This document shows, piece by piece, positions 11,668-36,499 of a stretch of DNA of 36,499 nucleotides (positions within the stretch are counted from its first letter, which is position 1; each line of letters opens with the position of its first letter). The position numbers were made by a program, and so were the translations under genes. Origin of the DNA: Candidatus Latescibacter sp. (GTDB lineage: Bacteria > Latescibacterota > Latescibacteria > Latescibacterales > Latescibacteraceae); assembly GCA_030692375.1 (NCBI GenBank), contig JAUYCD010000194.1, forward strand, positions 1 through 36,499, read 5' to 3'. A model generated the notes under the pieces. That model was not told where the DNA came from. It did no database searches and worked only from the letters and a program-made list of their open reading frames with translations.

Positions 11668-11725
11668 TCATTGTTGGGCTTCAAATATGAACTCACAAGC
11701 CATAAAAAAAAGGAGTAGAAACTAT

Positions 11726-12553
11726 ATGTTCTCTGTCCCAAAGAAGTTCTCGGAACGCGTCCTAAAAACCCTCCCTAAGTTTCAGAAAGTACTTGCTTTG
11801 GCAAAAGATCGCGATGTAAATGAAGCAGATACTGTTTCTATTGTTAAAGATATTCTCGGAGAGCTTTTTGGTTATGACAAGTTTCTGGAGGTAACTAGTG
11901 AACTGGCAATACGCGGCACATATTGCGATTTAGCGATAAAGGTGAACGACCAGATTCAGTTCCTAATCGAATGCAAAGCGATTGGCCTGGCCATGAAGGA
12001 AAGCCACCTTAAACAGGCGATCGACTACGGAGCGAACAAAGGGATCCCCTGGGTTGTACTTACCAATGGGATGCTCTGGAGTCTATACAGACTCCGCTTT
12101 GAGCAGCCAATCTCGTACGACCCAGTTTTCAGCCTGAACTTGGCGGAAGTCAGTCCAAGAAGTGAGAAGGATATCGAGCTCCTCTACATACTTTCCAAAG
12201 AGGGATTGGAAAAAGCAGCAAGGGAAGAGTACTACAACAAGATTCAATCGATCAATAGGTTCATAATTGGGAACCTTATACTCAGCGAGACTGTAATCTC
12301 ATCCTTACGGAAGGAAATCAGGAAATTCGCAGGAGATATACGTGTCGATGCAGCTGAGATCGAAGCCATGCTCAAAATGGATATTATCAAGAGAGAAATC
12401 ATTGATGGTGAAGAAGCAAAGGCCGCTCAGGAACGGCTCAGAAAGTACTATAAGAAGATTGAGAGATTAGCAAGAAAGAAAGACATTTCAACTGATGAAA
12501 CAACTCCGATTTTGAGCGAAAAACAAGAAAAGGACAGCAATCAGTCTAGTTAA
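11726..12553 (+). CDS. solitary HsdR N-terminal-type nuclease domain protein
   Basis: A 275-residue protein with a PD-(D/E)xK fold like the N-terminus of type I restriction subunit HsdR. The signature reads EVTSELAIRGTYCDLAIKV, then FLIECKAIG, then QAIDYGANKGIPWVVLTNG; the Asp of CDLAIK and Glu-x-Lys of ECK form the likely metal site. There are no helicase motifs, and no HsdM or HsdS is nearby. The C-terminal third is helical and charged, perhaps a coiled coil. I place the start at ATG 11726 (MFSVPKKF), with AGGAG at 11711-11715; the upstream in-frame ATG at 11687 adds 13 residues but has no RBS. Proteins of this stand-alone type are widespread and of unproven function; an orphan defence nuclease is plausible. 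Confidence 0.82.
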   Translation: MFSVPKKFSERVLKTLPKFQKVLALAKDRDVNEADTVSIVKDILGELFGYDKFLEVTSELAIRGTYCDLAIKVNDQIQFLIECKAIGLAMKESHLKQAIDYGANKGIPWVVLTNGMLWSLYRLRFEQPISYDPVFSLNLAEVSPRSEKDIELLYILSKEGLEKAAREEYYNKIQSINRFIIGNLILSETVISSLRKEIRKFAGDIRVDAAEIEAMLKMDIIKREIIDGEEAKAAQERLRKYYKKIERLARKKDISTDETTPILSEKQEKDSNQSS

Positions 12554-19198: not shown

Positions 19199-19699
19199 AT
19201 GGCCACTAATACTTATAGCTTTAAGACTTATGAAGAAGTGGCAACATACCTTCTTAATCAAATGGCGGAAGAATTCGGATTGCAGAAGGTTGAAGACAAG
19301 CAAAAGATAATCGGTCTTAGATCAGGAACCGTATGGGAGATTGATGGAAAGGGTATTGGCGATGGTAATACCAAATTCGTAATCATCGAGTGTAAAAGAT
19401 ATACTGCTTCAAGACTAAACCAGGAGATCGTTGGTGGACTCGCTTATCGAATTAATGATACTGGTGCATCCGGTGGCATTATTGTCTCCCCTCTTGGCCT
19501 CCAAGAAGGTGCCAAAAAAGTTGCAGCAGCAGAGAATATTATCCCAGTAATCATTGATGAAAATAGTTCCTCTACTGACTACATCATGAAGTTCCTGGAT
19601 AAGATAAAAGTTGGTTTGAGCGGCCAACTCGATATGAGTAGTTCGCTTGGCAAACTGGTTTCCCGGAAGGATGGGACAATAGAAGATAAAGGCTGTTAG
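19199..19699 (+). CDS. solitary Mrr-like PD-(D/E)xK endonuclease
   Basis: A 166-residue protein resembling the Mrr-type restriction endonuclease core. Metal-site residues are visible: the strand FVIIECKRYTASRLNQEIVG carries E-x-K, preceded by WEIDGKGI, and followed by the typical Q-E-I-x-x-x-x-x-x-R-I-N-D-T-G-A and GGIIVSPLGLQEGAKKVA. Mrr proteins cut modified DNA; the usual N-terminal winged helix is lacking here, leaving only the catalytic core and a short tail. It is AT-rich compared with the housekeeping genes and sits right after a toxin-antitoxin pair, so it was probably acquired. The RBS is weak. An orphan defence nuclease is likely but unproven. Confidence 0.75.
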   Translation: MATNTYSFKTYEEVATYLLNQMAEEFGLQKVEDKQKIIGLRSGTVWEIDGKGIGDGNTKFVIIECKRYTASRLNQEIVGGLAYRINDTGASGGIIVSPLGLQEGAKKVAAAENIIPVIIDENSSSTDYIMKFLDKIKVGLSGQLDMSSSLGKLVSRKDGTIEDKGC

Positions 19700-32120: not shown

Positions 32121-33074
32121 CTACGCTTCGACCTCGGTGAAGTTTGGATAATAGCGATATAACTTGCGGTATCTTTCGCGTTCCTCCTCTGGCAACCACT
32201 TGGGGAAGGCGGCGGAGCGAGGCAAGCATTTATCCAAGAAGCGCATTTCCCGCCATGTCAAGACTGGGGTTTCGATGGCATAGGCCGTATCATTGGAACG
32301 GGTGAACTCCAGATCCTTAAAATGTTCCTTTACTGACAGCCTTTCCCGGTCATTCCCGTTAAGGAAAATGCCTCCAACCGTAAGCATTTTCGTTCCGTCT
32401 GCGTAGTGAAAGTTGAAGAGTTGATCGTATCCGATACTAGCGTCGGGAGACAAGGGAGCGCATCGAGCGTTCAGCGTTTGGAGAATTTCATTGTGTACGA
32501 TCACCCGACACGCGTTCGCCATTCCCCATTTGGACAAGTGCTTTGCCTCAATTGAAGAGGGGACCTTGTTTATCCCGACACGTTCCTTCAGATCTTTCAG
32601 GCGCTTATTCGCTGCATCCGGTTCGGAAGAATCACCAGGTTCTACGGGAACCGTAACTAGCAACACACTACCGGATTTTGTAATTCCTGCTACGAGTGCA
32701 ATGTCTATAAGTTTTTTGGCGTCCAATGGCGAATCAAAATCCAACCAGACTATTGCTCGACGAGGCCAATCCAGAGTAGGCAGGATATCGTGCGATAAGC
32801 CCCACTCCATCTTAATGCACGAATGGGGACGGTTGAACTCCACGCGCTTTTTTGCGTCAGTTCGTCCTTCTATACTAACCATGTCCTTGATGCCGAGACG
32901 TTCGTGGAACAGCCGGAAATCGCAAAACTCGTTAGACCCGAAACCGATATAGCGATAGGTAGGTAGAGGCGCAATTCGGGAAAGTCTGGCAAAAGCTTCG
33001 CAGAACATCTTCCGCTCGATGTTCTTCGCCGGTCTTAGCGCATAGTGGAATTTACCTAGGCTGGATTCGTTCAC
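32121..33074 (-). CDS. Rossmann-like protein of a MORC-associated cassette
   Basis: A 317-residue protein, last gene of the minus-strand cassette. Near the N-terminus it has FHYALRPAKNIERKMFCEAF, then YRYIGFGSNEFCDF (a G-x-G-S loop like SAM motif I, residues 42-53), SIEG at the second strand, and AIVWLDFDSPLD at the fourth. This looks like a Rossmann methyltransferase fold; I recall related proteins being labelled putative O-methyltransferases but am not sure of the family name. There is no nuclease motif. The start codon overlaps the stop of the GHKL gene (4 bases), so its product is made with that protein. Possible roles are adaptor, sensor or modifying enzyme. Function unknown. Confidence 0.75.
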   Translation of the reverse strand: MNESSLGKFHYALRPAKNIERKMFCEAFARLSRIAPLPTYRYIGFGSNEFCDFRLFHERLGIKDMVSIEGRTDAKKRVEFNRPHSCIKMEWGLSHDILPTLDWPRRAIVWLDFDSPLDAKKLIDIALVAGITKSGSVLLVTVPVEPGDSSEPDAANKRLKDLKERVGINKVPSSIEAKHLSKWGMANACRVIVHNEILQTLNARCAPLSPDASIGYDQLFNFHYADGTKMLTVGGIFLNGNDRERLSVKEHFKDLEFTRSNDTAYAIETPVLTWREMRFLDKCLPRSAAFPKWLPEEERERYRKLYRYYPNFTEVEA

Positions 33075-34408
33075 TCGTCGACCTCCGCATTGTAGAAATA
33101 ATCGAAGGTTTTTTCGCCCACTTGCTTGAAGGAGTGAGCCTTGAGCGCCTTCTTGACCCGAATCACCTTGTCGAGTGGCACATCGTACTGGATACGCTGC
33201 ATCTTGGGACCGACCTTTGTTTGATTGGCCATTATGGTAGGTTGCTTAAATATATCGCGTGTCTGGACATCCGCAACATCCATCGTTTTTGATCGCTCTA
33301 TGAGTTGCTCCAAAGGACCTTTTTCCCCATCTTCATCTTCCCTATCGGCCTTCTCGTCTTTGAGTTTGTTAAGGAAGTCCACGACGGGACGCATCAAGCG
33401 CATCATTTCTAGTTTGGTCGCCCGATAAACGGAAGAATCCGTGTTCAGGCCTGTCTTGGTAGTATTCCACGGCAATCTGCCGGGATCGTCCGAATCGAAG
33501 TATGCGTATCCTCGCAGGTGATTGAACTGCATGTGGAATCCCGGAATCGATATCCCATTCGACTTATCGCCCCAGCCTGTAATATACGTCTTGTCGGCTT
33601 CGAGAATCAGCCTGCCGTTGCAGAAGACGTGCCAACCTGCCAGAGCTGGATCTCGCATTTTGCCAAGTCCACAATATAGTTTCACTTTGACCCGATTCTC
33701 GGGGGAATCCCCGTATTGCAGCTCTTTGAACGCGGGGGCCAGTTGATCGTCTCCCAACAGTTCCAATGGCTCAGCGTCGACGGGAATTCCGTTCAGAGTT
33801 ACGGCAAGGCCCTTCGATATTGGGTCTTGAAGTCTTGCCTTCATTTCGTTCGCGAGTTCCGTTTTGAAGTTTTCCAAACCGAACGAATGAGACACATCTT
33901 CGTGTAGATTGGTAACCGTTATAGTCGTTCCGCGTTTGTCCTCTTTTACCTCGATATCCTCCTCTATGATGGAGAATTCATATTCCCATTTGGGTTTACT
34001 TGCCCAATTTCTTACATCCTCCTCAACAACGAATCGACTTGTCTCCGTGAGCGATTCGACTTTGAACTTGCTGCCCAGCTTAAAAATGGCACGCTTCATC
34101 CCAACGCCGAATTCTCCGATCGAATGCTTCACCAGTGGCATGTCCGAAGCCCTTCCGAAACGGAAAGCGTACTTTCGAGCGATTTCAACGGATATGCCGC
34201 CGCAATTGTCCACGATGCGGAATTCCTCTGGTGATATTTCCAAGCGTGCCCAAAGGTTATTGTACGAGCCGTCACCCTCCATTTTTCTTGCCCCATCGGC
34301 ACAGTTGTCCACCAAATCTATGATCGCCGGAATGAGCGGAATGTCCCGCGTCAGCATGTCGATGAAGAGTTCCTTCGTCGGCATTGCGTTTATCTTTTTA
34401 TCAGTCAT
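33071..34408 (-). CDS. MORC/paraMORC-like GHKL ATPase
   Basis: A 445-residue protein with an N-terminal GHKL ATPase domain. N-box AIIDLVDNCADGA places Asp31 where the catalytic Glu usually stands (4 before Asn35), a notable E-to-D change. ATP-contact motifs are VDNCGGIS (Asp67) and the lid GEFGVGMKRA (Gly101-x-Gly103-x-Lys105). An S5-like transducer follows (about residues 160-300), then a helical C-terminal part with many charged residues. In prokaryotes, MORC-like GHKL proteins occur with restriction-modification genes. AAGGA lies 8 bases before ATG 34408; the gap to the methyltransferase gene is 19 bases. Probably DNA-binding or -clamping, with ATP-driven dimerisation; specificity unknown. 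Confidence 0.85.
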   Translation of the reverse strand: MTDKKINAMPTKELFIDMLTRDIPLIPAIIDLVDNCADGARKMEGDGSYNNLWARLEISPEEFRIVDNCGGISVEIARKYAFRFGRASDMPLVKHSIGEFGVGMKRAIFKLGSKFKVESLTETSRFVVEEDVRNWASKPKWEYEFSIIEEDIEVKEDKRGTTITVTNLHEDVSHSFGLENFKTELANEMKARLQDPISKGLAVTLNGIPVDAEPLELLGDDQLAPAFKELQYGDSPENRVKVKLYCGLGKMRDPALAGWHVFCNGRLILEADKTYITGWGDKSNGISIPGFHMQFNHLRGYAYFDSDDPGRLPWNTTKTGLNTDSSVYRATKLEMMRLMRPVVDFLNKLKDEKADREDEDGEKGPLEQLIERSKTMDVADVQTRDIFKQPTIMANQTKVGPKMQRIQYDVPLDKVIRVKKALKAHSFKQVGEKTFDYFYNAEVDE

Positions 34409-34427
34409 TTATCCGTCCTTATCCGTT

Positions 34428-35591
34428 CTAACTATACTCGTTGTTTGACAGAAGTTCTATAACGCATCGTGCAACTGCACGCGCTAGTAACGGGGGCACG
34501 GAATTGCCTACCTGACGGAAACCATGCCATTTCGTCGGATGAAACTCGAACCAATCCGGGAATGAATGGAGCCGCGCCGCCTCGCGCGTCGTTATGCAGC
34601 GTGGCATTTTCGGATGTATCGGTCTGGCCGCGGTATGCGAGCCGTGGTCCGGTCCTGTACCCGCCCTCAGGGTAGGTGCGACCCCATCGCAGGCCAATCG
34701 GAAGAAGCGACTGATTTTCTCGGTCGTTCCTGGTGTTGTGTCCGCAAAGCGACGCTGGGTTGTATCAGAGTGCTTCGTTCGAAAACACCCTCCTAGACCG
34801 CGTACATTCAGTATCTTCCGCGAATCGATGCCATCTTCGAATGTTTCGTAAGCACACAACGATTTGACGTATCGACTGAGCGAACCGAGCTCACCATGAT
34901 ATCGGTCCGAATCGAAGAGTTCGGGGCAATCATCGAGGTGCGCCAGGTCGCCGATGGCATCCCACACAGTCGGCGATAGGAACTGGCCGCAATCGTCGCA
35001 AATAGAAGCCGGTTCGGGATAACTGGGCGGTTCGATTTCCTTCTTGAATCCCAGCAAGAACGCCCTTTGTCTTTTCTGCGGTATGCCAAATTCCGTTGCA
35101 TTCAACACCCTTACCGGTTCAACGAGTTCGTATCCGGCTCTTCGTATCCGCCGACTGAAAGCTCGAAACAATTCAATGGCATCGCCCAACAACAATCCCG
35201 GAACATTCTCCAAAACAAAATAGCGAGGTTGGATTTCGCGCACTAAGCGCGCGAAATGTAAAAGCAACTGGTTTCGTTCGTCTTGAATTTCCCTTTTTCC
35301 GATCAGCGAGAACCCTTGACACGGCGGCCCACCGAAAACAACATCCACGGAACCGGCGAAAAGATTAGCCTCGTCCAACAAGTCTCTACCGGAGAGCCTT
35401 GACAAATCGGCTTGGATCGTCTTGCAGTTCCGGAAATTCTCCATGTGCGTGCGAATATTGATCGGATCCTGTTCAATGGCGGCGGCGACATCGAATCCCG
35501 CCTGCTCGAAACCGAGCGACATTCCTCCGACTCCGGCGAACAAATCGATTCCAATCGGGCGTGTTTTGGGGGTTCCCTTAGTGCCGTTCAT
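34428..35591 (-). CDS. C5 cytosine DNA methyltransferase
   Basis: A 387-residue DNA (cytosine-5) methyltransferase. Motif I DLFAGVGGMSLGFEQAGF, motif IV GGPPCQGFS with catalytic Cys91, motif VI ENV (128-130), motif VIII Q172-x-R-x-R176, motif IX with REAARLHSFPDWF and motif X RQVGNSVPP are complete. A target-recognition region of about 180 residues contains CDDC near residue 200. The recognition site cannot be read from sequence; pairing with vsr suggests a C that is protected from T:G mismatch. It overlaps the vsr stop by 14 bases, and the ATPase gene follows after 19. Confidence 0.95.
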   Translation of the reverse strand: MNGTKGTPKTRPIGIDLFAGVGGMSLGFEQAGFDVAAAIEQDPINIRTHMENFRNCKTIQADLSRLSGRDLLDEANLFAGSVDVVFGGPPCQGFSLIGKREIQDERNQLLLHFARLVREIQPRYFVLENVPGLLLGDAIELFRAFSRRIRRAGYELVEPVRVLNATEFGIPQKRQRAFLLGFKKEIEPPSYPEPASICDDCGQFLSPTVWDAIGDLAHLDDCPELFDSDRYHGELGSLSRYVKSLCAYETFEDGIDSRKILNVRGLGGCFRTKHSDTTQRRFADTTPGTTEKISRFFRLACDGVAPTLRAGTGPDHGSHTAARPIHPKMPRCITTREAARLHSFPDWFEFHPTKWHGFRQVGNSVPPLLARAVARCVIELLSNNEYS

Positions 35592-35994
35592 CGAGAAACC
35601 TACGCAATCTCTGTTCCAGTTTGTCGCGATCAGTCGTTTGACATTGCCAGACCACGAGAATCTTCCATCCTTGTTTCTTCAATATACCGATGTTTCGAGT
35701 GTCGCGCTTGACATTTTTCTCGAACTTGTCCAACCAAAAGGCCGTCCGGCTTTTCGGCACGCTTGCTTTTCGGCACGCTTTATGTCGATGCCAGAAGCAA
35801 CCATGCACGAAAATGATCTTCTTGTGCCTCGGCAACACGATATCGGGCTTTCCCGGCAAATCGGAACGATGCAGGCGATAACGATAGCCCATGGCATGAA
35901 CCAATCTCCGAACGATAAATTCCGGTGTTGTGTCTTTCGAGGGAACCCGGCTCATGAGCCAACTTCGCCTTTTCGGAGTTAAACGGTCTGTCAT
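35578..35994 (-). CDS. vsr: Vsr very-short-patch mismatch endonuclease
   Basis: A 138-residue nuclease. With the start at 35994 (MTDRLTPKRRSWLMSRV), catalytic residues fall at the same numbers as in E. coli Vsr: Glu25, Asp51, His64, His69 and His71, with Cys66 in the zinc site. This supports choosing this ATG over a TTG at 36048 that lacks an RBS. The segment PGKPDIVLPRHKKIIFVHG then CFWHRHKAC is diagnostic. Vsr nicks T:G mismatches caused by deamination of 5-methylcytosine; in modification clusters it can also be a restriction-type nuclease. It is the first intact gene of the cassette, 13 bases after an hsdM-like fragment, and its stop overlaps the methyltransferase gene by 14 bases. Confidence 0.93.
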   Translation of the reverse strand: MTDRLTPKRRSWLMSRVPSKDTTPEFIVRRLVHAMGYRYRLHRSDLPGKPDIVLPRHKKIIFVHGCFWHRHKACRKASVPKSRTAFWLDKFEKNVKRDTRNIGILKKQGWKILVVWQCQTTDRDKLEQRLRRFLDERH

Positions 35995-36007: not shown

Positions 36008-36088
36008 CATCTTGTCAGCCGCCAGCCATAACTTTGCCTCGAAGTCAAGAATCGACGTTTGTTGAGATGGGGTATTCCCCTTTCGCAT
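36008..36088 (-). pseudogene. N-terminal remnant of a type I hsdM-like gene
   Basis: From ATG 36088, preceded by AAAGGG, the frame reads MRKGNTPSQQTSILDFEAKL and then WLAADKM. Type I methylase subunits (HsdM) typically open with F-E-A-x-L-W-x-A-A-D-x-L/M-R. The match breaks off right after ADKM; the remaining frame (to 35780) is simply vsr read in another frame. So 27 codons of an hsdM start with their RBS now sit 13 bases ahead of vsr. A short coupled leader peptide is an alternative explanation. Confidence 0.55.
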
Positions 36089-36160: not shown

Positions 36161-36499
36161 TCACTCTTTTAAATATATACTGAAAAGGTTTAGATAACTT
36201 CTTATCCAAAGTCCTTGAATTTTAAGGCAAAGAAGTAATGTGCTATATTTTATACTAATATTCGCATTTTCGAGCTTTTATTAACCAGAGGAAACAAGGA
36301 GAGAATGCTATTGCATCAACAATAGAACCGCCATACATCACGTCTGGCGATTTTAAAATGTTTGAGCACCTTTTGGGTTTCAGCAAACACCTTAAGAAAG
36401 ATTGAGGAAGCAAAAAAAACCGCCAAACCTTTTTTCCAGTCTGACGGTCAATTGCTTTTTACCCTTACTGGAAAAATCACAATTCGGCGCTATTATCGT
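36161..36499. other. AT-rich right edge without a confident gene
   Basis: The + frame after the stop at 36323-36325 stays open to the window end (58 codons: e.g. TLRKIEEAKKTAKPFFQSDG then QLLFTLTGKI). It has protein-like composition but no start or RBS that I trust; it could be the beginning of a gene running off the edge or a fragment. A second short frame ending KHLKKD is equally uncertain. Confidence 0.3.

Follow-up and report, generated by a model that had tools for sequence, protein, structure and literature searches.

A MORC-family ATPase and a methyltransferase-fold partner beside a cytosine methylase and Vsr: a cassette probably directed against DNA without the cell's own marks

A cytosine methylase and the mismatch endonuclease Vsr form a familiar neighbourhood in E. 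coli, so why are they packed together with a MORC-type ATPase and a further protein in Candidatus Latescibacter sp.? The question arises from a DNA stretch of 36,499 nucleotides (GCA_030692375.1, contig JAUYCD010000194.1, positions 1 to 36,499; the window), in which a first-pass annotation had pointed out these four genes as a candidate defence cassette. The analysis described here indicates that the cassette probably serves to attack DNA without the marks of the cell itself, and that its conserved part is smaller than the four genes.

The cassette and its four proteins

Open reading frames and Pfam matches confirmed the four minus-strand genes, including the positions and overlaps that had been given for them (Table 1). 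Vsr and the C5 methyltransferase (DCM) overlap by 14 bases, a gap of 19 bases separates DCM from the ATPase gene, and the latter overlaps the fourth gene, which begins with GTG, by 4 bases. The ATG is the most likely start of Vsr, with an in-frame TTG at 36048 as an alternative. A terminator-like hairpin upstream of Vsr suggests that the four genes form a separate transcription unit, and only 450 bases of the contig remain upstream of Vsr. It was also correct that the cassette contains no standard restriction enzyme or helicase, as neither a restriction endonuclease (REase) nor a helicase gene was found in a Pfam scan of it. A Hydrogenedentes MAG carries the identical gene order with 72-80% identity and has no flanking genes in common with the window; thus, the arrangement is not due to chance and the four genes move together. 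In the window, the neighbours of the cassette are housekeeping genes and no defence island is evident there. Two isolated proteins resembling restriction nucleases are encoded on the plus strand among unrelated neighbours and far from the cassette, namely, an HSDR_N_2-domain protein at 11687-12553 (4.6e-7) and an Mrr_cat-domain protein at 19199-19699 (1.1e-4).

Table 1. Features of the cassette and its upstream region in the window.
Feature	Coordinates	Strand	Details
Vsr	35578..35994	(-)	138 aa from ATG at 35994; PF03852 3e-29
C5 cytosine DNA methyltransferase (DCM)	34428..35591	(-)	387 aa; PF00145 2.7e-63, 214.8 bits
Prokaryotic MORC-family GHKL-S5 ATPase (predicted)	33071..34408	(-)	445 aa; HATPase_c_3 PF13589 9e-9
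MT35 (PF20553 Methyltransf_35 protein)	32121..33074	(-)	317 aa; Pfam 3e-97, 326 bits
Terminator-like hairpin	36418..36449	(-)	12-pair stem followed by T run; consensus match only

The MORC-type identity that had been proposed for the ATPase was borne out by its motif, a profile match and its predicted fold. The motif GhXhhpXXRhl of the S5 domain separates MORCs from paraMORCs according to the main text of PMC2292703. It reads GWHVFCNGRLI at residues 258-268 of the window protein, and of 92 non-redundant relatives, 85 keep its strict form. With a profile built from 40 relatives, the top match in the PDB was human MORC4 (7K7T, E 3.8e-5), spanning both the GHKL and the S5 domain. According to its structure prediction (pLDDT 90.7), the protein resembles MORC3 (6o1e), MORC2 (MORC2-DNA), SMCHD1 and Hsp90/TRAP1. 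Judged by these features, it is a MORC-family GHKL-S5 protein with the S5 signature of true prokaryotic MORCs. The N-box D31-x-x-D34-N35, the motifs DNCGG and GxFGVGMKRA, the S5 residue Lys318 and the other ATP-site residues that were checked are invariant or nearly so among the 92 relatives. At the position of the GHKL catalytic Glu (residue 31), 88 of them have Asp and four have Glu, a family-wide exchange that may weaken ATP turnover or slow down hydrolysis. Approximately 70% of the published prokaryotic MORC loci have a linked superfamily II helicase, which the main text of PMC2292703 presents as a tendency and not as obligatory; none was found linked to the window cassette.

The fourth protein, first described as Rossmann-like, is present where it had been placed and belongs to a named Pfam family, PF20553 (MT35), to which Pfam assigns no function. 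The match exceeds the curated cut-off of 27 bits (Table 1). Its AlphaFold2 model (pLDDT 93.8) has a predicted class I SAM-methyltransferase fold, as the best 50 Foldseek matches were all proteins of this fold. The top match was the tRNA methyltransferase Trm1 (3axs) with E 1.1e-6 but a TMq of only 0.45, and a profile search against PDB sequences gave no match. In 94 non-redundant relatives, Y11, R14, K17, R21, Y42, G46, D52, W110, D112, D226, M230 and E276 are invariant, E69 as the likely acidic residue of the SAM site is nearly so, and G44, G46 and D112 are also conserved. The invariant residues and the nearly invariant E69 suggest that MT35 is an active enzyme.

The remaining two proteins are of well-known types. 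DCM was recognised by the PADLOC model MTase_II with 445.6 bits, and its nearest solved structure is 3G7U (E 6.8e-78). Vsr reached 145 bits with NCBIfam TIGR00632 (cut-off 97.85) and its alignment with the E. coli enzyme (1CW0, E 3.9e-31) extends over HGCFWH and LPGxPD, i.e. over the active-site and mismatch-reading region.

A conserved pair with exchangeable partners

The first-pass annotation had made its proposal dependent on a repeated linkage of the ATPase and the fourth gene to DCM in other genomes, and this linkage held. Of 152 loci, 148 have MT35 after the ATPase, mostly with an overlap of 1-4 bp. The four loci without MT35 in this place are one at a contig end (L053), an actinobacterial one (L064) and two distant haloarchaeal relatives (L004 and L005). 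The latter two are located on plasmids with Dam-type adenine methylases alongside, and one of them adjoins dptFG. In the reverse search of about 1,650 sampled genomes from five phyla, counted without the centre genomes, all 13 PF20553 matches adjoined the ATPase. Each of 28 host genomes contained exactly one PF20553 gene.

The two proteins also diverged together. Across 71 dereplicated loci with DCM, the Spearman correlation was 0.857 for ATPase and MT35 (0/1000 permutations), compared to 0.14 for ATPase and DCM and 0.065 for MT35 and DCM. With DCM-adjacent loci only, the respective values were 0.86, 0.11 and -0.06. The nearly absent correlations with DCM mark it as an exchangeable module, and a value of 0.30 for ATPase and DCM in the non-viral subset indicates that this exchange is frequent and not complete. 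The position and strand of DCM relative to the pair are variable. ATPase and MT35 are a near-obligate, co-evolving pair, and the conserved core is this pair and not the four genes. The earlier expectation that the genes act together was thus supported as to co-functioning, whereas a four-gene unit did not hold since Vsr is absent from most loci. MT35 had been considered a possible regulator or modifier; rather than a loose regulator, it is the constant partner of the ATPase.

One copy of the pair is probably dead. On pSymA of Sinorhizobium meliloti KH46 (L002, 8205-13350), the ATPase is separated by an IS66-type element from MT35, which has lost part of its N-terminus; DCM, Vsr and a REase-like gene are located downstream on the opposite strand.

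A DNA-modification gene was present within 6 kb of all 13 sampled PF20553 loci: nine of the C5 type, three of the N6/N4 type and one of the MmeI type inside DISARM. Of the genome loci with full context, 44 out of 55 had a C5 methylase and six had Dnd. DndC, DndD and DndE fused to a HerA/FtsK-like ATPase were encoded beside the pair in L056, L062, L078, L080, L021 and L028, and at such loci the pair is possibly an alternative or an addition to DndFGH restriction. N6_N4_Mtase genes stand beside it in other relatives. On the Microvirga terrae plasmid pR24_2 (L003, 1006-18999), the pair is inserted between an MmeI-like methylase and drmA of a DISARM type 1 cluster with DCM and Vsr at its head. It has the same position inside the DISARM type 1 cluster of a sampled Bacteroidota genome (L178). 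No description of a DISARM composition with this pair was found in the searchable literature. Given the fact that differing marks (5mC, N6/N4-methylation and phosphorothioation) occur beside one and the same pair, direct reading of a single mark by it is unlikely, and the co-divergence result means that simple recognition of a constant methylated motif is not possible for it. We infer that it would be coupled through the modification enzyme.

Directly upstream of the pair, two Paenibacillus loci (L020, 1449-2720; L021, 3952-5223) encode a SIR2_2-domain protein, so that some variants could have an abortive effector linked to NAD.

Proposed interference by the pair and alternative roles

In the most likely reading, interference within a modification-guarded defence system is the task of the pair, and Vsr only carries out repair. 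The more detailed version, a machine of MORC clamp and MT35 that blocks unmarked DNA beside an exchangeable self-marking module, is given about even odds (approx. 0.5). The modification module, here the C5 methyltransferase, would mark the cell's own DNA. Since the pair does not co-diverge with DCM, contact with unmarked DNA of a phage or plasmid would probably be made via the modification enzyme or jointly with it. A MORC dimer would close on this DNA using ATP and block it by compaction or arrest, with MT35 contributing as effector or regulator by means of SAM. Vsr would repair T:G mismatches that originate from deaminated 5mC.

The likely defence role that had been suspected at first is supported by the place of the genes in a prophage hotspot. 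P2-like prophages of E. coli have a published anti-phage hotspot in the interval that separates the genes for portal and replication endonuclease (PMC9122126, PMC9519451). It is occupied by exactly the ATPase, MT35 and a convergent DCM; this trio is bounded by phage genes and no nuclease gene was found in the interval. The P2-type trio was present in 47-50 genomes. For the trio of the Rac prophage, a minimum of 172 out of 5,426 complete E. coli genomes contained 80% or more of the 5-kb query. The trio is also found in the Pf filamentous phage PfAC20, from which a 2025 survey of Pf phages counted only the cytosine methylase, as an incomplete system (PMC11878078).

The same mobile location is compatible with a role of the pair in modification support or anti-restriction, which appears rather doubtful. 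The pair would aid the modification enzyme, limit its cost or add a second mark, so that mobile elements and prophages evade restriction. Its frequency in prophages, its presence in a filamentous phage and the methyltransferase fold of MT35 fit this role. A stand-alone DCM can protect phage DNA, and the prophage-borne DCM could serve anti-restriction instead of defence. However, chromosomal loci with Vsr in many phyla imply a long-term resident methylation, Dnd and DISARM loci are accompanied by the pair as well, and its P2 slot is documented for anti-phage systems.

It is unlikely that MORC-MT35 is an accessory which remodels DNA for a REase that is lost here or acts in trans. Such remodelling was proposed for MORC-linked restriction-modification systems in the main text of Iyer, Abhiman and Aravind 2008 (PMC2292703), and the published linkage agrees with it, as do REase-like families, HNH_2, GmrSD or helicases beside the pair in some loci. 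With the families in the query set, beyond which others could go unrecognised, a REase-like family was recognised near 12 of 60 C5 genome loci. The remaining 48 and 62 of 64 C5 viral loci had none of these families, and the P2 trio leaves no space for a REase between the phage genes. Should this nuclease-free trio act in defence, interference would have to come from the pair.

The distribution of Vsr bears on its assumed role as the effector. It was present in 28 of 80 genome loci (the closest 80 of 382 relatives) and in 3 of 65 viral loci, a redundant set; ORFs were called mechanically for all loci. Among the genome loci with full context, it occurred in 21 of 44 with a C5 methylase vs. 0 of 11 without (Fisher p = 0.004). 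Given this confinement to C5 loci and the conserved mismatch-reading region, an optional repair companion for deaminated 5mC seems the better reading of its sequence and context. In the first-pass annotation, Vsr was the possible effector nuclease with the ATPase as DNA sensor or clamp; in this model, the clamp would license Vsr on unmethylated DNA. Without its methylase, a Vsr-like protein from Caulobacter leads to DNA damage (PMC12907096), and E. coli MutL as a related ATPase interacts with Vsr (as cited in PMC12907096). Both would suit an effector, but 52 of the 80 genome loci and 62 of the 65 viral loci lack Vsr altogether, so that this model is very improbable. By analogy with the Caulobacter case, Vsr may still have a secondary role. 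Hardly credible is a mismatch-repair annex in which the ATPase would assist Vsr at 5mC sites in the manner of MutL. The GHKL kinship to MutL and the DCM-Vsr context speak for it, but most loci of the pair are without Vsr and some have Dnd, the signature and profile match indicate a MORC, and the profile search against the PDB returned no MutL match.

Interference by the pair could reach further than the C5 context. Tentatively, and well short of even odds, MORC-MT35 may be a nuclease-free, modification-agnostic module in which a clamp and a SAM enzyme silence or arrest unmarked DNA, coupled to writers of 5mC, N6/N4-methylation or phosphorothioation. In eukaryotes, foreign DNA such as transposons is silenced by MORC ATPases, and such a module would be the bacterial counterpart of this silencing. 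If the pair restricts without a nuclease across modification chemistries, self and non-self would be told apart in a new manner. Since 2008, the role of prokaryotic MORCs has been no more than a comparative-genomics prediction. As ATPase, MT35 and DCM form a minimal recurrent unit in E. coli prophages, which defence catalogues miss, the proposal is directly testable in laboratory strains.

Comparison with known systems

The first-pass annotation could not name a characterised system with this gene set, and none was found in PADLOC, NCBIfam or the searchable literature. PADLOC and NCBIfam recognised DCM and Vsr and contain no models for the ATPase or MT35, both of which match families of unknown function in PHROGs. 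Searches for PF20553, for DISARM with GHKL and Vsr and for prokaryotic MORC defence yielded no description of the pair and no mention of PF20553 in the literature covered, which excludes subscription papers and supplements; the pair could appear there under another name.

Several assignments do not fit. The cassette has no cognate restriction endonuclease, as expected of a type II restriction-modification system, and the DndC/D/E genes of Dnd systems are absent from it. DISARM type 1 houses the pair in Microvirga and L178, which suggested membership; this was rejected because the window is without DrmA, DrmB, DrmC and DrmD, and none of its ORFs matches the Microvirga Drm proteins. MZA shows a distant GHKL-domain likeness through its ATPase MzaB (PADLOC MzaB 2.9e-6 for one relative), but the window ATPase reached only 10.9 bits against the MzaB cut-off of 850 bits, and the cassette has MT35 instead of Z1 or AIPR partners. 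PD-lambda-5 from an E. coli functional screen is labelled as a methyltransferase; a GHKL-MT35 pair is not indicated in its paper, and MT35 has no PADLOC match.

Other systems share single traits with the cassette. E. coli Dcm-Vsr likewise combines an adjacent methylase and mismatch endonuclease, but is without the MORC-MT35 pair. In VcSduA, a paraMORC3 Shedu (PMC12137116), a GHKL ATPase is proven to be necessary for anti-phage defence. It is a single gene with a fused DUF4263 nuclease, unlike the window ATPase, which had no DUF4263 match in a Pfam scan. The HEF_HK/Response_reg_2 pairs (Bellieny-Rabelo 2021, PMC8011034) also consist of a GHKL protein and a constant partner with a C5 methylase and often Vsr. 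Their partner is Response_reg_2 and not PF20553, and neither HEF_HK nor Response_reg_2 was found in the window proteins by Pfam scan. The prokaryotic MORC restriction-modification operons share the GHKL-S5 ATPase, the motif GhXhhpXXRhl and the linkage to cytosine methylase and Vsr, and comprise a helicase-free minority like the window cassette, while the main text of PMC2292703 mentions no MT35-type partner, Dnd link or prophage trio. The most fitting place for the cassette is among MORC-linked restriction-modification systems, as an uncharacterised variant with MORC-MT35 as its conserved core.
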